Of a stretch of DNA of 64,000 nt, positions 2,408-52,869 are shown one piece after another. Position 1 is the first letter of the stretch. Every line of letters starts with the position of its first letter. The position numbers and the translations under genes are program-made. The notes beneath the pieces were generated by a model, which was given only the letters and a program-made list of their open reading frames with translations, was not told where the DNA came from and did no database searches. The DNA is from Sialis fuliginosa (lineage: Eukaryota > Arthropoda > Insecta > Megaloptera > Sialidae), in the NCBI GenBank assembly GCA_961205875.1, contig OY540816.1, forward strand, positions 10,488,701-10,552,700. Direction: 5' to 3'.

Positions 2408-2718
2408 ATTTAATATATTTTTATTTTAACACCAATTGTTTATAAATGGTTAATGGAACATTTATAACATATTTTATAATTATCTTTTAACTATCTACGT
2501 TTGTACAATGAAACTTCTCAAACCAACTCCTTCCTTAAACGACCAGTTTGTGATGAGAACCATTTGTTTCTTTATATATATAATTTTTCTGCAAAAAGAC
2601 AACTTTCATAAGCGACAATTTTTTTAGTAACCACAGTAGATCGGTTTGAAGAAGAAATAACAAATGAAAAGCAAATATCAACCGTGTTACTATAAATTGT
2701 TTTTAACTATAATTCTAT
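2408..2718. other. Intergenic, nothing recognised
   Basis: AT-rich sequence between two repeats; no exon, RNA or repeat structure was identified. Confidence 0.4.
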
Positions 2719-3060
2719 TACCCAGTATTATAAAGAATTTGTTTGAGTGCAAATGCAAATTAGCTTCCAACTAACACTATCTGCTAGGTGTCAAATTTTT
2801 ATGAAATTGCTCGATATTTTGAAGCAGTGGTAATAAATGTATAATAATGTAAATGCTTTGCATTTTATGAGGTACACTTGGCAACACTTATTTTAAGTTG
2901 TTGATTGTACTTATCGTACATGCATCAACGTTATCATATGTACGATTTCATTCGCTACATCTGTGAGTGTGTTGTCATTTATATTTAATACCTAGCAGAT
3001 AACGTTAGCTGGAAGCTAATTTGGATTTGCACTCAAGCAAATTCTTTATAATACCGGACA
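2719..3060. mobile_element. MITE family 1 (TGYCCGGTATTATAAAG ends), copy 1
   Basis: Left end CCCAGTATTATAAAG; right end CTTTATAATACCGGACA. Subterminal inverted repeats GCAAATTAGCTTCCA and GGAAGCTAATTTG enclose a centre shared with copies at 7531, 9307, 35913 and 50487. The terminal TG of the left end is decayed. An open frame overlapping its right part at 3005-3223 is not a gene. Confidence 0.8.
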
Positions 3061-3114
3061 TACATATTTTTTTCTGCATATTTTTGCTCCACCGAGTATG
3101 ATACACAAAACCAA

Positions 3115-7530: not shown

Positions 7531-7870
7531 TGCCCAGTATTAAATTATAAATAATTTACTTGAGTTCAAATACAAATTAGCTTCCAGCTAACGCTATCTG
7601 CTAGGTGTCAAATTGTTATGAAATTGCTCGATATTTTAAAGCAGTAATAATAAATGTATAATAATGTAAATTTTATGAGGTACACTTGGCAGCACTTATT
7701 TTAAGTTGCTGATTGTACTTATTATGCATGCGTCAACGTTATCATATGTACGATTTCATCCGCTACATCTGTGAGTGTGCGTTGTCATTTATATTTAATA
7801 CCTAGCAGATAGCATTATCTGGAAGCTAATTTGCATTTGCACTCAAGAAAATTCTTTATAATACCGGGCA
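7531..7870. mobile_element. MITE family 1, copy 2
   Basis: TGCCCAGTATTA start and TTTATAATACCGGGCA end, with an exact TAA duplication (7528-7530 and 7871-7873). Subterminal ATTAGCTTCCAGCTAACGCT and its complement are present. Confidence 0.85.
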
Positions 7871-8539
7871 TAAATGATATGAACTAGTAGATTTGACTTC
7901 TGAAAGTGGAAACTTGTTGACATAATAACATAATAGCACAAAATTGCCATATTGTCTGATATATGTACCTACCATGTGATTCATACGTGGGGTTCAAGTA
8001 CCCATGTTTAAAAAAAGAAAAGTGTAAGCGGTTTATCTAAATAAAAACCGTTGTGACAAATCTGCTGTCTTCCATACATCCGCTTCCTTTGATTAGTATG
8101 TTCATTAATCTAATCAGCCTGACAGGGTCAGTGACGATTTTATATAATATGCACATGCAAATTGATGAACCTGGGCCCTATTCTTAAAATTTTTATTGGT
8201 AAAATAGTTATTGGATAAAAATTATTTATTCTGGGAAGTGTAGAGCCTCTAAAATGGGGCCCAAGATAGGGTCAGTGCGTTAATGTTAATCATAAGTTAC
8301 CCCTTCCTATTTTCTCCAATTTTTTCTTAAATTATAATAGACTATAGTGCAGATTGTAGGAGATGGTGAGGGTGTTGATATTATTGTTATTATAACACCT
8401 TTCTTGGACTTATTATGTTCCGAATTTTGCATTGATATGTTATTGCAATTCTACTTTCGAAGTATTTTGCAGTGCTTACAGTACTAACAGCTTGCATAAT
8501 GACGTTATTTTTAAATGGACAAAGATACACTATAGATAC
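7871..8539. other. Intergenic, nothing recognised
   Basis: No exon or repeat boundary was identified. Confidence 0.4.
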
Positions 8540-8893
8540 TCAATGGGAGCGTTCACGTCTGACCAAAAAACGGAACAACGAGATTTGATTGGTTGATTCA
8601 TGGAATTTTTGGTGGAATGTACCAGAAATTAAAAGAATGTCATTTTTTAAGCGTGTATGGAAGTGAGAAAGAAGTAACCAGAGATAGAAACTAGTGACCA
8701 GGCTAACCTTCATGTTGAGCGTTTCTGCCAGAACACTAGTTTCTGTCTCTTTCTGGTTACTTCTTTCTCACTTCCTTACACGCTTAAAAAATGACATTTT
8801 TTTAATTTCTGGTACATTCCACCAGAAATTCCATGAATCAAACAATCAAAGCTCGTTGTTCTGTTTTTTGGTCAGACGTGAACGCTCCCAATG
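8540..8893. mobile_element. Hairpin MITE, about 350 bp
   Basis: Long inverted repeats start TGGGAGCGTTCACGTCTGAC and run with few mismatches to a small centre near 8700; the complement ends at TGAACGCTCCCA. Target duplication not resolved. The open frame at 8694-8924 lies inside the right arm and is not a gene. Confidence 0.8.
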
Positions 8894-9306
8894 TTTAATC
8901 GAATTAAATGATATCAAAAATTGAGACGTGCTTCTACATTGTGTTGTAATCGTTTCAATTATTTTCCTTAAGTTAACATTGAACAATAAAAAATGTATTA
9001 TTACTAATATCGTGTTTAAATAATTATCTAGTTTTCGTAAAACGTTTACTTCTTTGTAGTCGGTGCGCTAATAGGTTAATTGATTTTTGTATAAACATCA
9101 GTTCAAAATGTAGTTTATTTATTTCTCAGAATAGTTGGTCTAATAAAGATCTGAAACACACTGTCCTAATTATTTATCTATAAACACAGATAACTAGGTT
9201 GTGATTGTTTAAATATTTACCAATACATATACCAACTTGTGTGAAAAATATTACGTTACGTGCATATTAAATAAATATTCGTGTTTTATGTTATCTAACC
9301 GATGTA
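8894..9306. other. Intergenic, nothing recognised
   Basis: AT-rich sequence without identifiable features. Confidence 0.4.
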
Positions 9307-9770
9307 TGCCCGGTATTATAAAGAATTTGCTTGAGTGCAAATGCAAATTAGCTTCCAGCTAATGCTATCTGCTAGGCACTGAATATAAATGACACACAGA
9401 TGTAGCGAATAAATCGTACATATCATAACGTTGACGCATGCACGATAAGTACAATCAGCGACTTAAAATAAGTTCTGCCATGTGTACCTCATAAATACAT
9501 TATTATACATTTATTACATAGAATGGGCTGAGCAATAGCCTCAATGGACCACTCTCTTGAAAGAGACAAAGCGACTGTTCGGCACAATTTTTCGCCAGTA
9601 TTTACTTCACAGCTGAATAGCGAATGCTCAGTCATTTCTATAAGTCTATGATTTATTACCACTGCTTTAAAATATCGAACAATTTCATAACAATTTGACA
9701 CCTAGCAGATAGCGTTAGCTGGAAGCTAATTTGCATTTGAACTCAAGCAAATTCTTTATAATACCGGGCA
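9307..9770. mobile_element. MITE family 1, copy 3 (enlarged)
   Basis: TGCCCGGTATTATAAAG start and complement end; exact GTA duplication at 9304-9306 and 9771-9773. It is 464 bp against about 310-340 bp for its relatives, because about 130 bp of unrelated sequence sits near 9520-9655. The open frame at 9489-9701 (-) falls in this insert and is not supported as a gene. Confidence 0.85.
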
Positions 9771-10256
9771 GTAGACGTTTTGTTACAATCATTGATTAGA
9801 AAATGTTACATGTTACAATATTAGCGAATTATTAATTCGAACATAGCTTTAGTCGTATTTATTTTTTATTTGTGATTAAAATCATATTTTTTTGTTAAAT
9901 TTCGAGAATACAAAACAAACTTTTAACGCCGTAGGTCCAAAGTCCATAAAACATTTTATATTTAATTGGTTTTTCGATTTCGCCTACTTGGCTTTTATGC
10001 TATTTTGACGAGCTGCTTCATTTGTCATCTGTCAATCATTTCCAACAACATTTTATTGTATATTTAATTCTGTACACCTGTGTATAAAATTGCTTTGTCC
10101 TTCAAAATTGGTTTACGCCCATAATACATTATACGTTGACCTAAAAATAATTGTCCAGGTATGTTTTTCATCTCTATTTATAACAGATTATTTATTATAT
10201 AATGTTAAAGAGTATTTCTTGTTAATATAAAATTACGGTTAGTTAATATTAATGGG

Positions 10257-17231: not shown

Positions 17232-19861
<2,630 letters not shown>

Positions 19862-20408: not shown

Positions 20409-21371
20409 AAGGCTTATTACAATTTTCTGCTGTGTCACAAAAATAGAAATTACAGTTTTAAATTTGAATGCGTTGTTGCATACAAATAAAATGATTGTAG
20501 CAATTTACTCTGTTTTCATAGCAGCTATTTTTGCAACAAAAATTGTATGTCTAATTGCCTGGCTGTAGCATAAAAATGATAAGTAAAATTGTATACTATA
20601 GTACCAATACTATTTAATAGAATAATCAATATTATTATATCTTTATTATTTCAGTAGTTTGTATAAACAATGATATCTTCAGCTTTGCTATTAACACATT
20701 GTATTATGTAGTAATAATAAATTTTCCAAATTAATTCACACCCTGCAATATTCTTGTATAAACTTCAATTACGCATCGCAACCGTATTTGCCACCCTGAA
20801 CGTGGAAGTTCAAATGAATGAATTTGTGCACAATGCTATACATGATACAATTTATTTATACATAACAAAGTAATTTTAATTGTACATTACTGTTGATGCA
20901 GTTGTCCACCAACTCTGTATTGTAACCAATGAGGGACCAAATGGTTATAGTACAAAATATATATATGTAAAATATCAATGATAACTGTCAAAGGCCTCCC
21001 ATAAAATATGTTGATTCCCCTGATAAAAATCCTGGTTATGTCACTGCCGCATGTGTTTGACAAAAGGATTATACCTTTCGTTGTGTGTAGTAGAACGTGA
21101 ACCTCACTCACCGTTATTTACATGCAGTTTACTTCTGCTTGGCCTGCTAGACCCATATGTGTTATCAGTGTGAGAATTTTTCATTTTCCCCCCATTAAAT
21201 TATGTTAATTTTTCATCAAAAATACATTATAATTATAGTTTAAGTATTTAAATTAAGAATTATTTTTTATTTTCAGTGATCTGTTATATATATATTTTTT
21301 ATTATACATATATAATAATACAATAAAAAGTATTTTATCTATAAATAATCAATAGGTAATTCAATAATAAT
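20409..21371. other. Intergenic; includes a direct repeat of palindrome sequence
   Basis: No gene seen. The segment at about 21276-21371 (GTGATCTGTT ... ACAATAAAAAGTATTTTATC ... AATCAATAGGTAATTCAAT) is repeated directly inside the left palindrome arm at 21678-21760, so the palindrome is flanked on this side by a partial copy of its own arm. Confidence 0.6.
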
Positions 21372-24300
21372 AATAGTGTGGAAAAGCTTGATAATTTTAA
21401 TTAAAATTCAGATAATAAACTTTTTAATGTAACGTAATTGAGGATTAATAAAAATTGTTAATTTGATTGTCAAAAACAGGATTTCTTAGCAATTAATACT
21501 AAGTACAAGTACCTATTTTATTTTATTAAATGTTTTTTGGAAACCTTTGAATATGGCTAAAATATTATGCGCTTGTGATTTTTCGATATAAAGTGTCGTT
21601 TGGTTGGAATTTAAAAAATTTACAAAAAATTAGAATACATCTCGCAACCCAAGGGTTCAGTGTTTGAATCCCAAGGTGATCTGTTTTATTTTATTATATA
21701 CCTATAATAATACAATAAAAAGTATTTTATCAATAAATAATCAATAGGTGATTCAATAATACATAGTATGTATGTCTCAACAGTGATGCCATGTAATAAG
21801 TACATATATAATAAATATTTATAAATAAAGGTAAGTAATTTCAATTGTACAATATTTTATTCCTGTGTAGATAAACAGCGGTAACAAAGAACTAATTAAG
21901 AGCATCTATGTAGATAAATAGATGTTTTAAATTCACTCGGTTTTCAGTTTTAAAAGTCATCGTATATACTGATAACATACATTACACCAGATTTTAAATT
22001 CATTCATTAATAAATACGATAACGTCTCTTTTTTGACAAATTAATTGATTTAGTCAGAACGGCATCTGAAAATATTATTGAAATTTGAAAGGTACATGTG
22101 GCGCCATCTAGCAAAAACAGCTTGAACTAAAGTTTTTGATAGTTCAAGTTTGTCCCGCTAGATGGTACTACATGTACTTTTTAAATTTCAATGTATTTTT
22201 CAGATGCCATTCCGACTAAAATATTTTTTTTGCAAGTTAGAGACGCTATCGTATGTATTAGAGCATCCTAATTCCAAATATGCCCTTAAAAAGTTGCACT
22301 CGGAACAATAAAACCGTTTTTTATCAACTTTTGTCTAAGCGAGTCTTCTTACATACGATGGGGTGTTTTTTACTTTGAAATTCAAAATAGATGTATAAAT
22401 TATCGTACCAAAAAACACACTCTTTTTGAATTTGAAAGTAACAGACACGCTATGGTATGTAAGAAGACTCGATTATAACATATATGATATCAGATTTTAA
22501 ATACATTCACTGGTTCAAATTTTCACTAAAATTTCTAAGACAAAAGTTGATAAAAAACCGTGTTATCGATCCGAGCGCAACTTTTTATGGGCATATTTGG
22601 AATCAGGGTGCCCTAATACATACGATAGCTTCTCTAACTCGCCAAAAAAAATTTTTTTCCAAAACGAAACAAGGTAATAGTATGGCTTAAAAAACAGTCG
22701 AAAAATGCTTTTTTCGATTTTCAAATAATTAGATACGTTATCGCATGTATAGGGATACGCTAATTCGACAATTTTCATCAATTGCGAAATTCATCAAAGG
22801 GTTCAAAAGTTATAGCCATTTTACGACGAAAAATTGATAAAAAACAGTGATAGCGATTCGAGCGGAATTTTTTATCAACATTTTTGGAATCACCATGCTG
22901 TTATACATACGATAGCGTGCCTAACTCGACAAAAAATTTTTTTATCTGGTGACGTAACATGACAGCATCTCCACCATATATAAAAAGGTACAAAAATACT
23001 ATATATATCTTATTTTTGAATAAGGAATACAAAAATATCAAAAAATATTTTATTCAATATATATGGTAGAGGTGCCGTCATGTTACGTCACCAGATAAAA
23101 TTTTTTTTTGTCGAGTTAGGCACGCTATCGTATGAATAACAGCATGGTGATTCCAAAAATGTTGATAAAAAATTCCGCTCGAACCGCTATCACTGTCTTT
23201 TATCAATTTTTCGTCGTAAAATGGCTATAACTTTTGAACCCTTTGATGAATTTCGCAATTGATAAAAATTGTCGAATTAGCGTATCCCTTTACATGCGAT
23301 AACGTATCTAATTATTTGAAAATCGAAAAAAGTATTTTTCGACTGTTTTTTAAGCCATACTATCACCTTGTTTCGTTTTGGAAAAAAATTTTTTTTGGCG
23401 AGTTAGAGACGCTATCGTATGTATTAGGGCACCCTGATTCCAAATATGCCCATAAAAAGTTGCGCTCGGATCGATAACACGGTTTTTTATCAACTTTACT
23501 CTTAAAAAATTTCATCAAATTTTGAACCAGTGAATTGATTTAAAATCTATTATCATTTATGTTATCAACGTGTCATAACACATACGATGGCGTGTTAATT
23601 ATTTTCAAATTCATTAAGGATGTGTTTTTCAGTACTTTAATTGATACACCCATTTTGAATTTGAAAATATTATGCACGCCATCATATGTTAAAGGACACG
23701 CTGGTATCATATAACACCAGATTAAAAATCCTTTGTTTGTTAAAAAATTCAAACAAATTTTATAAACAAATGTTAATAAAAAACAGTTACATTGGTCCGA
23801 GTGAAACTTTTTATTTGCATTTTTGGACTCAGGATTCCCTAATACATTCGATAATATCTCTAACACGTTTAAAAAAAAATTAAGTTAGTCGGAATGGCTT
23901 CTGAAAAAATTATTGAACTATCAAAAACTGACTAAAAAATATTATTAATTCAAGCTGTTTTTGCTAGATGGCACCATTTAAACCTTTAAAATTTCAATAA
24001 TATTTTCAGAAGCCATTCCGATTAAGTCAATTTTTTTACGTGTTAGAGACGTCATGGTATGTATTAGGGCATCCTAATTACAAATATATAATAAAAAGTT
24101 GCACTCAGATCGTAAAAACCGTTTTTCATCAACTTTTGTCTAAAAAAAATGTTAAAATTATGAACCAGTGAAAGCATTTAAAATCTGATATCATATATGT
24201 TATCAGCAAGTCTTCTTACATACGATGGCGTGCATAATATTTTCAAATTCAAAATGGGTGTATCAATTAAAGTACTGAAAAACACATCCTTATTGAATTT

Positions 24301-26608
24301 GAAAATAATGAACACGCCATCGTATGTATTATGACACGCTGATAACATATATGATATCAGATTTTAAATACATTCACTGGTTCAAATTTTCACTAAAATT
24401 TCTAAGACAAAAGTTAATAAAAAACCGTGTTATCGATCCGAGCGCAACTTTTTATGGGCATATTTGGAATCAGGGTGCCCTAATACATACGATAGCTTCT
24501 CTAACTCGCCAAAAAAAATTTTTTTCCAAAACGAAACAAGGTAATAGTATGGCTTAAAAAACAGTCGAAAAATACTTTTTTCGATTTTCAAATAATTAGA
24601 TACGTTATCGCATGTAAAGGGATACGCTAATTCGACAATTTTTATCAATTGCGAAATTCATCAAAGGGTTCAAAAGTTATAGCTATTTTACGACGAAAAA
24701 TTGATAAAAGACAGTGATAGCGGTTCGAGCGGAATTTTTTATCAACATTTTTGGAATCACCATGCTGTTATTCATACGATAGCGTGCCTAACTCGACAAA
24801 AAAATTTTTTATCTGGTGACGTAACATGACGGCACCTCTACCATATATATTGAATAAAATATTTTTTGATATTTTTGTATTCCTTATTCAAAAATAAGAT
24901 ATATATAGTATTTTTGTACCTTTTTATATATGGTGGAGGTGCTGTCATGTTACGTCACCAGATAAAAATTTTTTTTGTCGAGTTAGGCACGCTATCGTAT
25001 GTATAACAGCATGGTGATTCCAAAAATGTTGATAAAAAATTCCGCTCGAATCGCTATCACTGTTTTTTATCAATTTTTCGTCGTAAAATGGCTATAACTT
25101 TTGAACCCTTTGATGAATTTCGCAATTGATGAAAATTGTCGAATTAGCGTATCCCTATACATGCGATAACGTATCTAATTATTTGAAAATCGAAAAAAGC
25201 ATTTTTCGACTGTTTTTTAAGCCATACTATTACCTTGTTTCGTTTTGGAAAAAAATTTTTTTTGGCGAGTTAGAGAAGCTATCGTATGTATTAGGGCACC
25301 CTGATTCCAAATATGCCCATAAAAAGTTGCGCTCGGATCAATAACACGGTTTTTTATCAACTTTACTCTTAAAAAATTTCATAAAATTTTGAACCAGTGA
25401 ATTGATTTAAAATCTGATATCATATATGTTATAATCGAGTCTTCTTACATACCATAGCGTGTCTGTTACTTTCAAATTCAAAAAGAGTGTGTTTTTTGGT
25501 ACGATAATTTATACATCTATTTTGAATTTCAAAGTAAAAAACACCCCATCGTATGTAAGAAGAATCGCTGATAACATATATGATATCAGATTTTAAATAC
25601 ATTCACTGGTTCATAATTTTAACATTTTTTTTAGACAAAAGTTGATAAAAAACGGTTTTATCGTTCCGAGTGCAACTTTTTAAGGGCATATTTGGAATTA
25701 GGATGCTCTAATACATACGATAGCGTCTCTAACTTGCAAAAAAAATATTTTAGTCGGAATGGCATCTGAAAAATACATTGAAATTTAAAAAGTACATGTA
25801 GTACCACCTAGCGGGACAAACTTGAACTATCAAAAACTTTAGTTTAAGCTGTTGTTGCTAGATGGCGCCACACGTACCTTTCAAATTTCAATAATATTTT
25901 CAGATGCCGTTCTGACTAAATCAATTTTTTTTGTCAAGAGACATCGTATTTATGGTATTTATTAATGAATTTAAAATCTGGTGTAATGTATGTTATCAGT
26001 GTGTCCTCTTACATACGATGACGTGTACTTTTAAAACTGAAAACCGAGTGAATTTAAAACATCTATTTATCTACATAGATGCTCTTAATTAGTTCTTTGT
26101 TACCGCTGTTTATCTACACAGGAATAAAATATTGTACAATTGAAATTACTTACCTTTTATTTATAAATATTTATTATATACGTACTTATTACATGGCATC
26201 ACTGTTGAGACATACATACTATGTATTATTGAATCACCTATTGATTATTTATTAATAAAATACTTTTTATTGTATTATTATATATAATAAAATAAAACAG
26301 ATCACCTTGGGATTCAAACACTGAACCCTTGGGTTGCGAGATGTATTCTAATTTTTTGTAAATTTTTTTAATTCCAACCAAACGACACTTTATATCGAAA
26401 AATCACAAGCGCATAATATTTTAGCCACATTCAAAGGTTTCCAAAAAACATTCAATAAAATAAAATAGGTACTTGTACTTAGTATTAATTGCTAAGAATC
26501 CTGTTTTTGACAATCAAATTAACAATTTTTAGTAATCCTCAATTACGTTACATTAAAAAGTTTATTATCTGAATTTTAATTAAAATTATCAAGCTTTTCC
26601 ACACTATT
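21372..26608. repeat. 5.2-kb nested palindrome (foldback structure)
   Basis: The outer arms begin AATAGTGTGGAAAAGCTTGA at 21372 and end with the complement at 26608; nearly the entire 5,237 bp is self-complementary about a centre near 23955-23990. Each arm contains smaller palindromes: units of about 1.06 kb centred near 23020 and 24870, shorter hairpins near 22040-22225 and 22330-22475 with mirror copies at about 25740-25925 and 25430-25575, and a core unit at about 23560-24340. The word CATACGATAGCG (or complement) with variants recurs about every 100-220 bp in alternating orientation. The arms differ by scattered substitutions and small indels, and the core is clearly more diverged than the 1.06-kb units. 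Four near-identical 72-codon open frames are a by-product of the repeats. The family is unknown to me: a foldback transposon, an inverted satellite or a hairpin-RNA locus are possible. Confidence 0.9.
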
Positions 26609-26704
26609 CAGAAAATAAATTCAATCACGATTATACTACCTCAAAATAGCTTCTTCCCTAGTAAAAAAATCACAAAATTTTTCCTTAATCAAGTGCAGAA
26701 TTCT

Positions 26705-27541
26705 CTATTTCCTGCCTCCTTTTGCAGGACACCGGAGAAGTAAAAAATCTGTTAATTGACGTGCTTCATCTTCTACAAGAACATATCTTAAAGGTATTCC
26801 ATCAACAGTCAATGGTTCTGGTTTTGGTAAATTAATTTTTCTATTGTTAAACTTCTGCTACATTTCTAAAAAAATTCCGCCATTGCTGCATTAGCCATAG
26901 GCATCTATATCATATCAACAAATGAGAACAAATAATTGGCATTGCAGATTCCCAGCAATACGATGCTGTGATTATTTTTGCAACTGAAGTATGCAGAACC
27001 AGCATTATCGGGGTACTGTAATAAATTTTATTATTCAATGATAACTCATCTGAACTTTCAATATTTCTACATACCTGAATTACTACATGTTTCCCATCAA
27101 GAGCGCCTATGCAATGACTGAAATATCACTAGTTTTCAAACTCGCTAGCAATATATAGCAACATGTTCTTATTGAAACAACTCCAAATTGTGACACCAAC
27201 AAGATATTGATAGGAAGTAGAAGTCATGCAGTCTCCGGTAGCTGAATATCTGCAGAGAGGTAATTTATTTTTTACGATTCAGGCATTTAAGTGATTAATT
27301 AAAATTGCTATGAAAAACTAACCTCACATCATAGTCGTGCTGCAGCAGGTATAGGATTTCTTACTGTATTCAGTTTGGAAATAAGAAAGCCTACTAAATA
27401 CAGCAGTTCTTCAAAATCAATTGCCATATGCAAATAATTTTTGAATTTGGCTCCATGCACGGAAAGGGTAGGAAATATGGCTTCATAAAATCCATGATTA
27501 TGTCGATTATGTCGTAACTGGTATAATGGATGAACACACAA
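26705..27541 (-). pseudogene. Decayed PIF/Harbinger transposase (HARBI1-like)
   Basis: Reading the minus strand in pieces gives the order expected of a HARBI1/ALP1-type DDE nuclease. The N-terminal part is VHPLYQLRHNRHNHGFYEAI (27535 downwards) with FKNYLHMAIDFEELLYLVG. Next comes YSATGDCMTSTSYQYLVG (near 27240), then the first-Asp motif CIGALDGKHVVIQ (near 27095), NNHSIVLLGICNANYLFSFV (near 26950), and a C-terminal LTVDGIPLRYVLVEDEA (near 26790) before a stop at 26705-26707. Stops and frame changes separate the pieces, and the usual Asp in the VDANY-type motif reads Asn. It lies directly beside the palindrome and upstream of SAAL1. No terminal repeats could be assigned. It is a dead relic, not the domesticated HARBI1 gene. 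Confidence 0.82.
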
Positions 27542-27981
27542 AAACTCATTTTAATAAAGTTTCTTATTCTGATTCAATATTTTACTGGTTTCAAGAACCG
27601 CCAGAATTATTTTCGCTATGTTCTCTTTCTTTTGAGTGTATCACACAGAATAGTTTGTTGACATTGAGTAATCTATGCTTGATACTTGTACACACTAGAC
27701 ATCATGTCTATATATCTTACTGTGCTCAAAATTACTCAAATGAAATCAATTTTTAATAAATGAATGAATAGTGTTTGCTTTACACTTAACCGTCAAACAG
27801 GATTTTGACAGCTAGCATCAAAATAGGTCACGTGACAAGATTTGACGCTAGCGTCAAGCGTCACATGAAAATGCACCCTAATTGAATTACAAATGTTTGT
27901 AAAATTTTGACGTTTGGAAATAATAAATGTACTGAAAAAATATAAGTTGTTTTTTTTATGTGTTAAGTTTTAAATATAATA
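27542..27981. promoter_or_regulatory. SAAL1 upstream region
   Basis: Contains clustered TTGACGCTAGCGTCAAGCGTC and related words at 27800-27865 that are partly palindromic (a GCTAGCGTC core). No TATA box or other named promoter element was assigned. The open frame at 27526-27756 shows no family resemblance. Confidence 0.3.
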
Positions 27982-35058: not shown

Positions 35059-38000
35059 TTATAGCTCATATATACTATTTTTCCAATAATTCCAACTGGC
35101 CATGTGACCAATACCAAAACAGGATAAAATAATGTAGATTAAATAATACAAAAATGTAACTTTTGCCGCAAGATTTAGAAAATATAAACTGAAACAAACA
35201 AAAATTAATTTTAGATTTCATATTCAATAGATTATAAATATATTAAAGCCTTAGCACTTTACAGAAACGATCTCCGTCACCGCTTCGACCTTGCAAATCT
35301 ATCACATGTTAGCTGCATCAAAACGCAGCACCGTTTCGATGCAGCTAAAATGCCACTTGTATTGAATCACATATAATAGATTTTCAAGGTCAAAGCGGTG
35401 ACGGAAACCGTTTCTGTAAAGTGCCAAGGCTTAAAAGCTTGTATTTAAATTAACTTTTTTTAAATATGTTACTCAAAATTACCTATTGAGTGGACAATTA
35501 TTGTAAATAGTTTTCTTTGTATTAACAATTATTTTATTAAAATATTTTTATACTGTATTCTGTACTTACAATGTCACGAATTTTCTTGCTCTTGGTAAAG
35601 TCGATAGGTCCTCTTTGAGACAATATTTCCTTGTCCCTAATATTATAGATATTACGTATGTATCAATATCATATTTGATATTAGTCATGTAGAATATTTC
35701 TTTATCTTCATCGTTAAGTTTATCAGTGAGACCCAAAAATTCTTTATTAACAAAATTCCATTTTCTTGTTGTGAAATATTTCAGTGATTCTAATCCCATA
35801 CTGATTTTGTTTTGTATTCTTACCATACTAAAAATGTAATAAATAATTTATAAAGGTCAATTCGAAATATATCTAATTGTAAGTATTATGTAATAATGTA
35901 CCTATACACTGATGCCCGGTATTATAAAGAATTTGCTTGAGTGCAAATATAAATTAGCTTCCAGCTAACACTATCTGCTAGGTATTAAATATAAATAACT
36001 ACACACACACAGAAGTAGCAAATGAAATCGTACATGTGATAACCTTGATGCATGCGCGATAAGTAGAAATCAGCGAAAATAAGTGCTATCAAGTGTACCA
36101 TATAAAATGCATTATTATACATTTATTACTACTGCTTTAAAATATCGAGCAATTTCATACAAATTTGACACCTAGCAGATAGCGTTAAATTTGCATTTAC
36201 ACTTAAGCAAATTCTTTATAATACCGGGCATGAGAAAAGAGTTTAGTTGTAGGAAATAAATGTATTTAGTGTGTATAACAGTGTGAAAAGTAAAAAAAAA
36301 AATCTAACAAAAACATAACATATCAAAGCCGCCAATCAATCCATGACAGTTAATTGTTGATAAATTGCTGCTGCAAACTATAAATTAAAAACGCTGTATG
36401 CTTACCTTTGTACTAACTACACCCTTAGTACGAATCACGCAAAATTACATCAAAAATCACTTATTTACATTTGCGGAAACAAAACACTAACATTTAACTT
36501 GTTAAGGAAAACAATATGGCCGATATGCAATAAATTTAGGCGCCTATCGCACGGTGTTACCGTTTAAGTAATCAGAAAACTACTCCAATTTAGCGAGTGG
36601 TCCAATGTACCATACTTTCCACTAAAACTGTAATTCTGACTATATTTTTTCCGTGTAATATCTTTTCTCAGTGTACTAATTAAGTATTACTTATTCTTAG
36701 TTCTTACTTACAATCTTTTCTGCATCAACAAGAGCATAATGAAGTCTATGAAATACGCTGGTATTTTATGAAATAAAAATATAATAAGATAATGGACGAA
36801 CTCATTTGTACGTAGACGACCTTTTGGATACCAAATAGGCCAGTCGAACGGGTAATCCACAATTGCTTTTAGTCCTTTATTCATTATATCACCCCATGTT
36901 AAAGGCTCTACTTGTCCTTGAGTGACGTTATATACAGGTACATCATTGTAACTGCAAATAAATAAAATACTTACTTAGGTATGTCCGGTATTATAAAGGA
37001 ACTAGCAAATTTGCTATCTTTAGCAAGCACGTTCAAATGGGGTATTGATTATGTGATAGTATTTATGGATTGATTAGCTATGGAATTTAAAGCAGTGATA
37101 CTTCAACTTATTGTATCACAGTTGGTGACTCTGACTGTACAAAATATTTTTTATAATATCGCCACCATAGACATAGAGCATGGACCGCGCAACATTTCTT
37201 CAAAACGGCGAGAGAGACGCGGTGGCGTTTGGGATATATCTATCTCTTTTTCTAAGAAGAACCAAATAGTTACTCCTGTTTAAATAAGGACAATTATATT
37301 CCAAACCATTTTCTATCTCTTTCTTTTTACACGGCTCTGTTTTCGAGTCATGCTCTATGTTTTAATACCATTGGTGGTTACATCACTCTTGCGCGAAAAT
37401 TGTCAAACACTTCATGAAACTTCAAGATAACTATCAGATAGGTTTGAAACCTCATTTTAAAGTGTTTGCTAGGTAGAAAATTTTGCTAGCTATACCGGGC
37501 ATTAAACTAATAATTCCTATATTTTATACTAAATAATGTTTTAACAATTGGATAATATCATTCTAATAGTAAAATAAAAATATTGTTTTTGAGGCAGATT
37601 TGTTCATGAGGTGATATAAGAAACATTGCGCAAATTAGAAAATAATCAGTAATTAAAGTTTCGAGGATAGCATTTTTATCTTTCACCGTTTAACGATAAA
37701 ATATCTCGAAACTTTTTTTAGAGCAGTTTAGAGCACATAATTATTTACATACAAGTCAGCAGAAATGTTCTTTAATTAATACAAGTGATTGCATAGGAGT
37801 CTTCATAACGTTACGTTAGGTAAATAAAATGTAGTACGTCGTAATATATCTTTTTACTATAAAAATCGAACAGCTAAAAAACGGAATGTCTCTTTTTAGT
37901 ACATGTATAAATAGGTACTTGAAATTATTATTATATAATACATTTGTCTCATAATGACAATCGAAAACTTTTTCGTATTAAATATCCGTAAGGAAATCAC

Positions 38001-41000: not shown

Positions 41001-44000
41001 TTCAATTTAAACTTGAACCCGAACCCGAACCTGAACTCTAAAAAACGGTTTTTTGATCCCAAACCCAAACCCGAACCAAAATTTATATTTGAACCCCGAA
41101 CCATAAATAAATTCCGGTTCAAGTCCCTGGTTTTATCCCCTCCCTCGATTAAAAATAATTAATTTTTTTCTTAATTATATTTTTACAATTGTATTTGTAT
41201 GTACTAACCACCGTTAGTTATAACGGAAATATTTAATAAACAAAAAACAAAAAATAAATTACTATATTAATATCATAATTTATCTATTAAAATCTACCTG
41301 CTTTGGCACCCGTGTAAACAATTAGCTATTACCTTTAATATCAGCGCCTAAGTTTAGGACACGGCGCTTCATGTACCTTGTAATTCAAGGATATCGGTAA
41401 AAGTAATTTACATTACATTGTTATAAGATTATAATGATATTTTGCTCTTGTCATTGATTAATTATTTTTTACGAGTTCCTTAGTAAAAAAATCATACGTG
41501 GTAACGAATAATTTTATTAACTGTACCATCACTTATTTTTTAGTGTTCCTTCTCAAAATCAGTAAAATGAACACATATGGAATCAACACTGTATATGTAT
41601 ATCTGTCTGTCACAGCTTTATAATTACTGAACCGTTTTAAAGTCATTCATATGAGTTTAGATTGCGCTAATCGATTTCTGGTTGATTATATAGTAAGTCT
41701 CACTCAAAGTCGTATTTTCTGATTTTATTAATCAATAATATCATTAAATATAGTTCATAATATACATTGTGTTCAATTTTAATGGTAATTTTTTATACTT
41801 GCTAAAAATAATACAAAAAGGAATTTTTAATAAATCTCGTAACCGTCACACGCTGCTGGTTTAGCTAAAAATGGCGATGTTGTCGAAACTTTTACTGGAG
41901 TGACTCTAAACTGTTTGGGCTATGGAAGACAGCTGAGATTTTGCATAATTATGGAAAACAAAATTTGAAGTTTTTATTTATTTACATAACATCAATTAAA
42001 AAAAAAAAAGTTTTTTAAATTGGATTTAAAAAAGAACAGTTGTTCCCAAACGTATGTTAAATAAATAAATTGCAATAGTTGTAAGAGGTATTAATTACGT
42101 AATTATCTTATAGTATATATATGTTGTATTTACATATACAGGGTGGCGCAACGAAAACGAAACGGTCGCGTTTTTAATCAGTTAAAATAAGATTTTGTAA
42201 AAATGCTCGAACACGTCGGTTTTGCTTTCAAGGGGGACATCTTTTGCAATAAAATTTTTGCAAGAATCTTTTCAACCCTCTACGCTATGAGCACAACCCT
42301 TAAAATTTTAAATAGCATGATAGGGCAAGTGATACCTCATTTGAAAGGTTTTTTCATTCTAAACAAGGTGCTTTTTGTTTTTTTCAAATCTGTTGAATTT
42401 TAGTCAATTTATTTACATTTTTAATTCCATGAATGCATTTCTTTTCTGATCAACAAAACAAACATTCAGAACTAAAATTCAAAACAAAGTAAGCTTATTT
42501 TCTTATCAGATAATTCACAAAAATTTACTAGCATCCAAAATTTTAATTAATTCAATAAATGTTCAAATTGAGCTCCACTAGCTTTCATACAAAAATACAA
42601 GTTATGTTCAAAATTATTTTTCACTTGTTGAAACGTTTGGCAGTAAGTTGGCGACATTCCTCGATAATAAGCCTACTTTGTTTTGAATTTTAGTTGTAAA
42701 TTGTTGTTTTGTTGATCAGAAAATAAATGCATTCATTGAACTACAAATGTAAATAAATTGACTAAAATTCAACAGATTTGAAAAAAACAAAAAGCACCTT
42801 GTTTAGAATAAAAAAACCTTTCAAATGAGGTATCACTTGCACTATCATGCTATTTAAAATTTTAAGGGTTGTGCTCATAACGCAAAGAGTTGAAAAGATT
42901 CTTGCAAAAATTTTATTGCAAAAGATGTCCCCCTTGAAAGCAAAATCGACGTGTTCGAGCGTTTTTTCAAAATCTTATTTTAACTGACCAAAAACGCGAC
43001 CGTTTCGTTTTCGTTGCGCCACCCTGTATATATATATGCTATTATATAATTTTTCTGCATCAATCAACCTAAAGAAATAATAATAACTGCTTATGTTAGT
43101 GAATGCTGATAATCTTCGATTGTTGTTATGAATAAAGAATTAAAAACTCAATACACTTTGATTTGATCATTATCGAGTAATTAGAAACTGCAATCAATAG
43201 ATGTAGGTACTATCGTCATAATGTTATATAATCTATAATATTATAACTATAACGGTTTCATTAGAATGTGTTGTGTGTCAAATAGTTTTATTTATTGTAA
43301 ATAAACAATAATTATAAATATTAAACTAATAGACACAGTGAATGTAAAATAAAACAAAAAATAATATCATATATTCCATTCCAATTCTGAATATATCTGG
43401 AATCTAAGCGTACTTTATTAGTTTTTTATGATTGGGACTTATTAATAAAAAGGCCTTTGAAAGGTCCGCTTATATGTAATAATCAAAAGCAGTATATGGC
43501 AACATCTTCTATTTATACATATAACAATATTATGAATATTGTTTATTTAACCCTCTTTTAGACGCCTATTATACTGTCGCGAGTTTAGGCACGCGGCATA
43601 CATGCGTAGACCATTTTCAATAGGTCCTATTAAGAGGCGTGTTAAAACAAAAGTCGCCTAATCCATCTAAATTTATTTTCTACAAATCGTTTTTTTCTTT
43701 TAATATTTTGTGTAGTTCCAATATCAGTTTTTATGGTCAATAATATCATTATGCACTGATAACAGATTCAAATTATGAAGAAAACAAATTAAAACAATTA
43801 CAAAATTTTGAGTAATTTTGAAAACAAATTTGGATTAGAAGACTTTTGTTTAGTATGCATGGATTTAGACAAGTTTTGTTTAAGTTTTGTAAATTATTTA
43901 ATTGTTTATTTGTTGTATTGATCTTTTCTGAAACAGATGTTACAAATGCTAACAATAAGATATTAAATATCTTTCAAATTTTGAAATATTATATTTTATT

Positions 44001-50000: not shown

Positions 50001-52869
50001 ATACTGTTAAAAAAAAGATCGTGTAGATCGAATTTTGTGTATTAAATTTTTGTGGTTAACTTTTATTTAATCTGCTATTCTTCTTCTAAATTTTTGTATT
50101 TTGTATTTTTTATGTTTTTTTTTTGTAATCTGGGGGCTGTTCGAGCTTCTTTCGTTGCCTGAGTCGTACTCAGCGTAATCATTTAACTAATCGTGAACAA
50201 GAGGTATAATTTACTTCACTAGTTTCATATTCAGTCATCTCAACCTTAATTTTTTTCAAAATTGTTACCTTTTTTATTCATATTTACGCTTTAAAAGTAT
50301 TTAAAACGCACGCGACCTACAAATTCAATGTTCAAAAAATTCCGCGCGGATCCCGCACTAAAAGTGCGGGATCCGCAGATCTCCAAAACGTGCGGGATCC
50401 CGCGGGAATGCGGGATCCCGCATTGCGGGATTGCAAACCCTAGCTGTGATAGCCAGACACTGTGTTGATTCCATAAGGAACACTAATGACCGGTATTATA
50501 AAAAAATTGCTTTCCCAGCTAACGCTATCTGATAGATGTCAAATTGTTATGAAATTGCTCGATATTTTAAAACAGTGGTAATAAATGTATATAATGCATT
50601 TTATGAGGTACACTTGGCAGCACTTATTTCAAGTCGCTGATTTCTACTTAATTCGCATGCGTCCAAGTCATTGTATGGTTGATTTCATTCGCTACATTTG
50701 TGAGTGGTTGTCATTTATATTTAATACCTAGCAGATAGCGTTAGCTGGGAGCTAATTTGCATTTGCAGCCAAGCAAATTCTTTATAATACCGGGCATACG
50801 AATGATTTATCTTTACGAGCTTGAATGAATTAAATGTTCGATTTTTTTTACTTGTCGAGGAATTGGTCTTAATATGAAAATTGCAGAAATGTAATCAAAA
50901 AAATCCAAACCGTTGTATGGAAAATTACAAAGACGAGCACCTTTATAGCCAACGGCGGATTTAGGCATGGACAACATGGGCTACTGCCCAGGGCGGCAAA
51001 ATTTTAGAGAGGGCGGCAGATTCTGGGAGAACACAACTTTTTTTAGTTAAACACTCCGATTATCAAAACGATTTTTCTACATCTTGTAAAAATTCTCTTA
51101 CGATTTCGATAGCCCTCATTTTTCAAATATTCAATATTAGCCTCTATCAATTAAACTACTGATTTCGAGTCAGCGCGCGATTTTTGTTCTGAACGAGCTG
51201 CCATCTGTGTACCAACTCATTAACTACATCCGCACATATTTGTTTACTACAACAATCGCATATTTGAAATATGCTATTGTTGAAGAAAATAGGTTATATT
51301 TTCCCTTGGTAGAGAGGTGGCAATTTGTTTTTGCCCAGAGCGGCACTTAACGTAAATCCGTCACTGTTTATAGCTACCTATAAAATACTCTAGTCTTGGA
51401 ACTGATTACAGATTCCAAATAATCATATTCGGGTGTCTTGTCATAAGATAGATATTCAATAATTCATAAATCATAATCACTTACCTCAAGCTTTGGGAAC
51501 TTTTCGCAAATGTCCAAAACTCTTACAGTTGATACTGTGTTCGTGTTGAGCGCATCCCGCAGATTCGCTTCGAGTCTTAGCGTGGCCGCTGCGTGTATCA
51601 CAACGCTAACATCACGAACCAGCATCTCCAAGGAGGCGGGAGACAGTCCTAGATTATCGGAGTGTATGTCGCCCTCGACAGCTATCATTTTCTTCAGGCG
51701 CTCGGGGTTCTCCGAACTGAGTTTTTGAAATACCTGAAAGTTGGTATAGTAATAATAATAACGTGTAAAATATTTTTAAAGTTTTATCCTTAATCAACAT
51801 TTCAGTACGGTGGAGAAGGAATATAGCTTCCTCGCAATATCAAAGATACGAAAAAAATTGTTCTCCGATTTCAAAATTATTATCCAAATAAAGTAAAGCC
51901 ATTGTTTTTACGTTGTGGTCAGTTAATATAAAGTACCTTAATAGGTATAAAAAGTAATTGTCATTGCAGATTTTTATGAGAATTTGTGAGATATAATCAT
52001 TATGTATTTATTGTTATTTTACGCGTGGTACTTTAAAAATTAATAATTTTTCAGTTGATTTTTTCTTGCGCTCAACTGAATATTTTATATTACTTTTAAA
52101 AACAAAATAATATAAGTAATGTTTATGAGTTAAATATTTACTCTTATGTAAGTTTGTAGAAATGTATGTAGTACATTAAATAATAAACATTGTTATTAGT
52201 AGTTATGTACATGTATGTATATTGTAAAATAATCATGTTTTAAATACTTATTTAGAAATGTTATGATAGTAACGCACGTTTCTGCGTATGAAAAGAATCT
52301 CTTAATTCGCTATGGTCAGTGACCACTCTACCACCTATCGGATAAAACTTGAATCCTTCAGAAGTTCCCAAACAGTCATTTGAAATTTTTAAATATAATG
52401 TAAAAATTATGTAAATAAGCAATTAAAATTATTAAATGCAATCAAGAATAAAAGAATAACCATAACGTTGTGCTGTACCAAATTGTGTCAATAATTCATC
52501 CAATTCATCTTAAAATGCAGCTGTCAAAAAAATATGGGTAAAAAATTTAAACCTAACCTCCATTAATTATAAAAATATTTATGACGGTTTTAATAGTACA
52601 TTTACATTGAACGGTAAATAGAAACATTTTCCGGATTTTTAAAAATTTTCGCTTTCAGTATGTTCAATAAGATTACTTACCGGTAGAGTGATGAAATGTT
52701 GCATGCGTGCTGAAGGACTCATTCCACGTTTACTGCGAATGAGTACGTAGATCTTGTTTAAATCCGGGAGACATCTCAGTAACTTCTCCAGTAGAACTTT
52801 GCCCATGAAACCGCTTCCACCAGTTACAAATACGCTCCGACCCGCGTACCATTCATTCAGACTGCCCAT
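35059..52869 (-). CDS. Fatty acyl-CoA reductase, complete (FAR gene 1)
   Basis: NADPH-dependent reduction of fatty acyl-CoA to fatty alcohol, normally at the ER or peroxisome membrane, for waxes, cuticle lipids or pheromone. Exons on the minus strand: 52869-52681, 51733-51485, 39687-39542, 39231-39122, 38383-38191, 36951-36712, 35827-35570 and 35188-35059; 504 residues, usual for the family, with every intron GT-AG and in phase. The N-terminal Rossmann part has YAGRSVFVTGGSGFMGKVLL (TGxxGxxG at 16-23), GDIHSDNLGLS (84 onward), VIHAAATLRLE, LYLSTAFCHCD and the active-site YTYSK (Y204, K208), then IVRPSMVIPAMREPCAGWVD. The C-terminal FAR/sterile domain has YNVTQGQVEPLTW, GRLRTNEFVHYL, MVRIQNKISMGLE and YCLKEDLSTLPRAR. 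It ends in a hydrophobic stretch (about 466-486) likely to anchor it. The ATG sits directly after a TTATAG acceptor, so a non-coding 5' exon is expected further right. Intron 2 is 11.8 kb. Confidence 0.95.
35246..35432. repeat. GC-rich hairpin repeat in FAR intron 7, full copy
   Basis: AAGCCTTAGCACTTTACAGA at the left and CTGTAAAGTGCCAAGGCTT at the right, then GCTTCGACCTTGCAAATCTA arms and an inner palindrome on AGCTGCATCAAAACGCAGC. Almost the whole 187 bp pairs with itself. Other copies: 4971-5125 and 62058-62208. Confidence 0.8.
35913..36230. mobile_element. MITE family 1, copy 4 (FAR intron 6)
   Basis: TGCCCGGTATTATAAAG start, complement end, exact TGA duplication (35910-35912 and 36231-36233). 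Confidence 0.85.
36982..37501. mobile_element. MITE family 2, copy with nested insertion (FAR intron 5)
   Basis: TGTCCGGTATTATAAAGG start and ATACCGGGCA end, flanked by GTA and TTA. It is 520 bp against about 290-340 bp for its relatives because a second element (37172-37359) is inserted. The open frame at 37080-37283 runs from the host MITE into the insert and is not a gene. Confidence 0.8.
37172..37359. mobile_element. MITE nested inside a family 2 MITE
   Basis: CATAGAGCATGG at the left is matched by CATGCTCTATG at the right. Removing it restores the GCCAC...TTTTAATACC reading seen in the uninterrupted family 2 copy at 63028 (its complementary strand). The interior is GC-rich (ACGGCGAGAGAGACGCGGTG). 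Confidence 0.65.
38518..39070. mobile_element. Harbinger-like MITE, copy B (full length, FAR intron 4)
   Basis: GGTACTGGCACCAGTTTTGG at the left and CATAACTGGTGCCAGTACT at the right. Internal words are shared with copies A, C and D. The open frame at 38989-39207 overlaps its end and FAR exon 4 and is a shadow. Confidence 0.8.
40599..41129. mobile_element. hAT-like MITE with GAACCC arrays, copy 2
   Basis: Ends CAGGGACCTGAACCTGAACC and CCGGTTCAAGTCCCTG. 8-bp flanks GTTTTACC (40591-40598) and GTTTTATC (41130-41137) differ at one base. Both ends carry many GAACCC/GAACCT/GAACCG hexamers. Confidence 0.88.
42139..43026. mobile_element. Long-TIR Tc1/mariner-type element, 888 bp
   Basis: TA-flanked, starting CAGGGTGGCGCAACGAAAAC with the complement at the other end. 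Inverted arms of about 370 bp have scattered mismatches. Between the arms, at about 42540-42690 on the minus strand, a decayed frame reads EECRQLTAKRFNK and then, past a stop, a GAQFEHLLN-like end, resembling the C terminus of mariner/IS630-type transposases (NGxHFEHL). The open frame at 42203-42403 lies within the left arm. Confidence 0.78.
43624..44188. mobile_element. TIR element with AGGCGTGTTAAAACAAAAGT ends
   Basis: AGGCGTGTTAAAACAAAAGT followed by CGCCTAATCCA at the left is matched at the right by TGGATAAGGCG and ACTTTTGTTTTAACACGACT. Target duplication and exact ends not resolved. The interior is AT-rich without coding capacity. Confidence 0.65.
45310..45600 (-). mobile_element. Fragment of the 32.7-kb retroelement-like block
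   Basis: Reverse-complement match to 33050-33420: shared TGACCTGCAAAACATTAATC, GATTTCATCGTCATAAGTA and AAACCGTTAAATATTGAACA. The conserved frame in both copies (33091-33387 on the minus strand) resembles no protein I know. Confidence 0.6.
45601..45996. mobile_element. Harbinger-like MITE, copy C (left-truncated)
   Basis: Shares AAATATAGTTTGTTTTTT, ACAAAATGATAAGTACTATG and CACCTATTGGCCGATTATCA with copies A, B and D, and ends ACTGGTGCCAGTACC before TTA. Confidence 0.65.
47198..47785. mobile_element. hAT-like MITE with GAACCC arrays, copy 3
   Basis: Ends CAGGAACTTGAACCGG and GGTTCAAGTCCCTG; exact 8-bp duplication ATTAAAAT (47190-47197 and 47786-47793). It is inverted relative to copy 2, so its hexamers read GGGTTC. 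Confidence 0.9.
49249..50442. mobile_element. hAT-like element, 1,194 bp, with GCGGGATCCCGC ends
   Basis: Ends TAGGGTTTGCAATCCCGC and GCGGGATTGCAAACCCTA; exact 8-bp duplication GCTGTGAT at 49241-49248 and 50443-50450. Clusters of CCCGCGGGAAT/GCGGGATCCCGC lie near both ends. An inner inverted repeat pairs about 49395-49530 with 49755-49890 (CCCATTTGATTA, CTCGGTTT, TATGAGT). The open frame at 49777-49962 is in the inner repeat. No transposase. Confidence 0.88.
50487..50796. mobile_element. MITE family 1, copy 5
   Basis: TGACCGGTATTATAAAA start, complement end ATACCGGGCA, flanks TAA and TAC. A few bases of the left subterminal repeat are lost compared with other copies. Confidence 0.8.
50950..51366. 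mobile_element. hAT-like MITE, 417 bp, exact target duplication
   Basis: Ends CAACGGCGGATTTAGGCATG and TTAACGTAAATCCGTCACTG; exact 8-bp duplication TTTATAGC (50942-50949 and 51367-51374). Shares CATGGGCTACTGCCCAGGGCGGCAAAATTTT with 57070-57334. Confidence 0.9.
51734..52680 (-). other. FAR gene 1 intron 1
   Basis: 947 bp, donor GTAAGT, acceptor TTTCAG. At about 51800-51890 it holds a fragment matching the retroelement tails at 1030-1130 and 31880-31980. Otherwise nothing recognised. Confidence 0.6.

Follow-up and report, generated by a model that had tools for sequence, protein, structure and literature searches.

We propose that a 5.2-kb palindrome at positions 21372–26608 of a 64,000-nucleotide stretch of Sialis fuliginosa DNA (hereafter the window; C8:10488701–10552700 in a host genome of 392 Mb and 20 contigs) forms the central part of a copy of a non-autonomous PIF/Harbinger DNA transposon with a foldback shape, a reading to which we assign a probability of roughly 0.87. 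The original prediction of a foldback transposon is supported by 41 loci with common termini and by 3-bp target duplications in four of the six copies that have both termini. The proposed likeness to Galileo or FB elements holds for shape but not for superfamily, the 3-bp TWA duplications and the DDE_Tnp_4 remnant being indicative of PIF/Harbinger. PIF/Harbinger transposons have a DDE_Tnp_4 nuclease, short termini and a 3-bp TWA target, and their second gene is of Myb/SANT or MADF type. The family described here has DDE_Tnp_4 sequence inside it, a 3-bp TWA duplication and short termini at both outer ends, combined with the foldback trait of long inverted arms with internal repeats that form most of the element.

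A dispersed family with a common module order

We examined 41 family loci including that of the window, hand-picked from ranked matches and spread over 11 contigs. Matches in the genome numbered at least 609 for positions 21372–22500, at least 41 for 21372–21660 and at least 43 for 21372–22026. The complete module order, B+ A+ Q- U+ N- u- O+ z- Z z+ O- u+ N+ U- Q+ A- B-, is common across loci and, where arms are present, the B-A-Q succession outside the array is constant. The central palindromic repeat occurs three times in 3 loci, twice in 9 (including the window), once in 22 and in partial form in 2, and is absent from the fetched stretch in 5; because these stretches were cut by place, some of the counts are lower bounds. 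Rearranged loci include L013, L018 and L021. Contig C13 (17.9 Mb) carries 10 of the 41 hand-picked loci against 1.9 expected, and few lie on the largest contigs. Searches of viral and prokaryote sequence collections with the module pieces returned no matches. At C8:11013700–11017300 (L078) lies a diverged relative that has pieces of B, of A and of the array; its larger pieces are 74–90% identical.

In view of the dispersed copies, we reject a one-off rearrangement. More generally, a one-off inverted duplication or an assembly artefact is extremely improbable: a single locus on its own is uninformative in this respect, but 41 loci have the same modules, and the 102 differences between the arms together with a 62-bp gap are unlike an artefactual mirror.

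Outer arms, termini and target duplications

The palindrome had been taken as the whole element, which proved too narrow, as its right arm runs on to 27878 and other copies have an outer arm on both sides. Just outside module A lies further sequence common to many copies, found on both sides in several of them. With the right flank of the window copy as query, 55 matches extending ~1,270 bp outward were obtained from the genome, and at least seven of the fetched loci are flanked by an inverted pair of matches to this outer arm (B). The family ends in GGGTGCC...GGCACCC, with the inward reading GGGTGCCTTTTCATGTGACGC, and the terminal 21-mer has 56 genome matches at up to three mismatches compared to one for a reversed control.

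Besides that of the window copy, 23 ends were read, and both sides were fetched for eight copies, six of which have both termini. Matching 3-bp TTA/TAA duplications flank four of these six, namely C6:19921577 (TTA/TTA), C6:16869512 (TAA/TAA), C12:11058336 (TAA/TAA) and C7:9668176 (TAA/TAA, where the left end, beyond a short insertion, was read by eye). The window copy ends on the right at 27878 and is followed by TAA, 103 bp ahead of the ATG of the next open reading frame (27982). A terminal TA duplication at 21372/26608 was dropped as a candidate, the palindrome edge being internal in other copies. A tRNA-derived SINE within arm A, a candidate raised on inspection by eye, was likewise set aside.

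The dispersal could alternatively reflect an inverted satellite-like array that was spread by recombination and came to lie inside Harbinger elements by chance. This would fit the repeat number of one to three, the broken arms or truncated ends of some loci, and a precedent in Drosophila virilis, where Tetris foldback repeats seed satellites (PMC4079207). The constant B-A-Q order outside the array where arms are present and the target duplications at the outer ends of B in four of six copies argue against such an array, which we regard as quite improbable.

Two further observations concern the termini. The variant AGGTGCCTTTTCATGTGACGT accounts, unchanged, for 16 of the 56 terminal 21-mer matches, on C1, C3, C4, C8, C13 and C14, and possibly belongs to another, younger related family. 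A 276-bp pair of family termini at C3:13246991–13247266 is likely to be a miniature inverted-repeat transposable element (MITE) of this family.

A nuclease remnant in the outer arm

Arm B contains parts of a PIF/Harbinger nuclease (DDE_Tnp_4) that are read from the end inward and occur in both arms of several copies. The corresponding Pfam profile, PF13359, scores above its cut-off (24.8) in the left B arms at C6:16870388 (34.8 bits) and C6:19922435 (34.3 bits). A relative at C14:3852985 has the same end (one end read) and a longer C-terminal half of the nuclease, and aligns to B at 71–79% in the main blocks. Its stretch 840–1070 occurs in none of the 41 loci, whereas the preceding sequence is found in 25 and the following sequence in 24 (distinct loci); the B arms thus have one internal deletion in common, which suggests that a broken source, mobilised in trans, gave rise to the copies. 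The C14 relative is not an intact source either, since ~365 bp present in B are missing there. A frame change after GKHVVIQ in arm B was rejected as common decay because it falls at a possible 59-bp GT-AG intron, recognised by eye in the window as well as in several further B arms; it is the internal deletion that marks B as broken. Of the 12 best DDE_Tnp_4 matches in the genome, C14 holds seven.

Several observations weigh against a PIF/Harbinger foldback origin. Among the eight copies fetched on both sides, C13:7595109 and C11:6628418 lack one terminus, and the flanks are unmatched at C13:6868841 (TTA/TAA, both ends read by eye) and at C7:19166707 (TTA versus AAA or TAA). The window copy has neither a left B arm nor a left terminus, and the left partner of its target site is lost with them. 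Only two of the 146 PF13359 matches listed fall in this family, and five short B peptides of the window gave a single DDE_Tnp_4 match at 16.6 bits, below the cut-off, from a peptide that also matches CBM_14 at 15.7 bits. Limited first looks did not find an intact nuclease with matching ends.

Under the transposon reading, a full-length Harbinger nuclease encoded elsewhere would have cut and pasted copies in trans via their ends. The inverted arms inside a copy may then pair and exchange sequence, which would keep the arms alike, flip inner segments and change the number of central repeats. The window copy would represent a form with two repeats, inserted upstream of the next gene, whose left outer arm has been lost.

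Structure of the window copy

The predicted 5.2-kb inverted repeat was recovered in full: 21372–26608 is a single inverted repeat whose left half aligns to the reverse complement of its right half at 96% identity over 2,527 columns; mismatches number 102 and gap columns 183. Identity is at least 95% in 21 of 27 bins of 100 bp, the lower bins being those at 22472 (89%) and 23472 (85%) and four central ones from 23672 (66.7–90.9%). Inverted units nested within the palindrome have arms of 1,392 nt at 96% identity, and of 758 nt and 645 nt around 75-nt spacers. Such nesting and a diverged core had both been anticipated, although the near-identical units measure ~1.37–1.39 kb instead of 1.06 kb and the core ~480 bp instead of 0.8 kb. 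Coordinates of the modules are given in Table 1.

Table 1. Modules and boundaries of the window copy, in window coordinates.
Feature	Position	Strand	Remarks
Element copy as surviving	21372–27878		comprises palindrome and right outer arm; left outer arm B gone
Extra module A fragment	21297–21369	+	direct orientation, in place of left arm B; 93% to 21689–21761
Module A, left arm	21372–22037	+	
Module Q, left	22038–22230	-	imperfect ~190-bp palindrome
Unit U1	22243–22364	+	62-bp gap versus mirror partner
P1, first palindromic repeat unit	22338–23702		u N u O z Z z O u N u
Junction between P1 and P2	23714–24193		diverged core; module Q' at 23861–24048
P2, second palindromic repeat unit	24194–25585		mirror of P1
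Unit U12	25543–25726	-	complete mirror of U1
Module Q, right	25745–25925	+	
Module A, right arm	25932–26608	-	
Outer arm B, right	26609–27878	-	internally deleted PIF/Harbinger nuclease read inward, plus terminal region; beyond earlier interval
Right terminus	27844–27878	-	2 mismatches versus family-end probe
TAA	27879–27881		3-bp target site at right end; left partner lost

The word ACGCTATCGTATGTA occurs 29 times in the window at up to three mismatches, 25 times within 21372–26608 and four times elsewhere, compared to a mean of 1.54 (standard deviation 1.34, largest 5) in 100 shuffles of the whole window. Its orientation alternates between 22243 and 25712, as had been claimed, save across a single degenerate spot near 23850, left unscored by the scan. 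Pairs of the word bracket a ~185-bp unit U, of which the palindrome holds 12 (one with the 62-bp gap) in the order + - - + + - + - - + + -. Four kinds of spacer lie between these units, namely N (82 bp), O (103 bp), Z (203 bp) and, at the centre, Q (188 bp); N, Z and Q are imperfect palindromes and O is not palindromic.

P1 (22338–23702) and P2 (compared over 24205–25569) mirror each other, differing at 44 of 1,365 columns. At the level of individual sites, 117 fit the mirror and 20 fit the direct orientation, 18 of the latter falling in two matching 40-bp patches. From this pattern we infer that arms exchanged sequence after the duplication.

The word may be a transposase-binding site, although the indications are suggestive only. 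When the two unit classes that differ most are compared, likeness reaches 87% in the first word (top 1% of comparison windows) and 76% in the second (top 20%), the average being 64%. Over the full set of loci, the rank of the first word is top 4–5% in two of three unit classes and 60% in the third, and that of the second word 81%, 44% and 5%. The word also resembles the terminal palindrome, a likeness matched by 35 of 1,000 shuffles. Multiple transposase-binding sites have been shown experimentally in the long arms of Galileo (PMC3688188), providing a precedent for the repeated word here, for which our own tests are mixed.

A MITE-like repeat family has several copies in the window (2687–3065, 7535–7875, 9306–9802, 35912–36068 and 50475–50801), with words resembling those of the palindrome at 2928 and 7736 (ACGTTATCATATGTA) and, with one base different, at 9417.

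How copies evolve

We inferred a tree of 59 A arms, in which 21 copies have two comparable arms. Left and right arms of the same copy are cherries in 12 of these 21, compared to a mean of 0.73 and a maximum of 5 in 2,000 shuffled pairings, and a copy's own arms reach 100% identity (L011 and L013). By plain identity, the own-arm pair tops every between-copy comparison in 10 of the 21. The simplest reading of these sequences is that arms are homogenised within copies, against which it must be set that in the other 11 an arm is equally close or closer to another copy than to its partner. Furthermore, L017, L019, L020, L023 and L024 keep distinct left and right arm types across copies in the tree, indicating a distinct-arm subfamily that moved as whole units. 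Next to the left-type arms of this subfamily, L031 and L027 have a flipped spacer Z. Among the seven multi-repeat loci with at least two Z spacers called, orientation alternates in four and is the same in three.

The diverged core of the window copy is 84–90% identical to 21 of 25 other junctions and 56–80% identical to the remaining four. The inter-repeat junction is therefore a module common to multi-repeat copies, and inherited asymmetry explains most of the low mirror identity of the core. Accordingly, the suggestion that parts of the palindrome were homogenised at different times agrees with the 12 of 21 copies whose own arms are tree neighbours but does not extend to the core, which for the most part is a module of another kind, not an arm that has decayed.

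Comparison with known systems

We know of no PIF/Harbinger element with multi-kb inverted arms. PIF/Harbinger transposons and their MITEs, like the family here, combine DDE_Tnp_4, short termini and a 3-bp TWA target, and the 276-bp pair on C3 has the same ends. No description of a PIF/Harbinger foldback element was found in the accessible parts of literature naming both Harbinger and foldback, most subscription papers and Repbase lying outside this search.

The family resembles Galileo, a Drosophila element of the P superfamily, in its long arms with internal repeats, and in that some Galileo copies have recruited transposase sequence into their arms and absorbed other elements (PMC4168063). 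The longest D. willistoni Galileo copy is 9,021 bp with arms of 4,246 and 4,680 bp (PMC4168063). However, Galileo has 7–8-bp duplications (consensus GTATTAC) and a P-type transposase, in contrast to 3-bp TWA duplications and DDE_Tnp_4 here, and its arm repeats are described as direct, whereas orientation alternates in the present family. Membership of Galileo or the P superfamily was rejected on the 3-bp target duplication. Tetris, the D. virilis foldback element, likewise has long arms with ~220-bp internal repeats in variable number and no autonomous copy reported, but differs in its 8–10-bp duplications, suggested Mutator affiliation and tandem repeats (PMC4079207). A Mutator-type foldback element was rejected on the same grounds, the duplication here being 3 bp instead of 8–10 bp.

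The breakpoints of the Anopheles gambiae 2Rj inversion also feature long inverted repeats with a Harbinger fragment (Harbinger1_AG); the authors found no other copies of these and rejected a foldback element, unlike the dispersed copies here (PMC1952172). Mu killer of maize, a partial inverted duplication of a transposase gene with two terminal regions, is similar in composition, but is one locus with reported silencing (PMC3440606), whereas the present family is dispersed.

Hairpin RNA and gene neighbourhood

As expected by the original prediction, RNA of the interval (5,237 nt) is computed to fold into one long stem (minimum free energy −3,783.5), with 2,416 of 2,445 pairs in mirror register. 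A domesticated hairpin-RNA locus, whose long stem would be cut by Dicer-2 into small interfering RNAs (siRNAs), could account for this fold; yet any foldback element gives such a fold by its shape, and there was no Rfam match at gathering scores, leaving such a locus highly improbable.

Given that inward-read transposase fragments lie in both arms, a transcript from near a terminus across the centre would be a kilobases-long hairpin with transposase sequence. By analogy with Mu killer, the family might be a dispersed, mobile version of that locus, yielding siRNAs against the Harbinger element that moves it, with the word array doubling as binding sites for the transposase or a partner protein; we consider this unlikely, though less so than a domesticated locus.

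The neighbours had been named as tektin-1 and SAAL1. Three tektin exons match Pfam, which confirms the tektin family, and a last exon, read by eye, ends at 19861, ~1.5 kb before the element. The SAAL1 label was not substantiated, the gene matching nothing in Pfam at 0.01 or in the PDB at 1. The testis-type neighbourhood, put forward as a hint of a germline role, carries no weight since copies are located on 11 contigs. An exon at 35566–35844 on the minus strand matches PF03015 ('Sterile', male sterility protein).

The window contains two other palindromic elements, one at 42128–43037 (375-nt arms, 94% complementary, 160-nt spacer) with ACAGGGTGGCGCA at its ends, and the other at 8541–8893 (148-nt arms, 94% complementary, 57-nt spacer).

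Implications

This family appears to add PIF/Harbinger to the superfamilies that produce foldback elements. Within one genome its copies point to two evolutionary routes, the transposition of whole units with distinct arms and the homogenisation of arms inside single copies. The palindromic repeat, of which a copy holds one to three and whose inner segments lie in either orientation, preserves a natural record of recombination between inverted repeats. Were the family transcribed, one could test directly whether inverted transposase fragments that are themselves mobile silence the source from which they derive.

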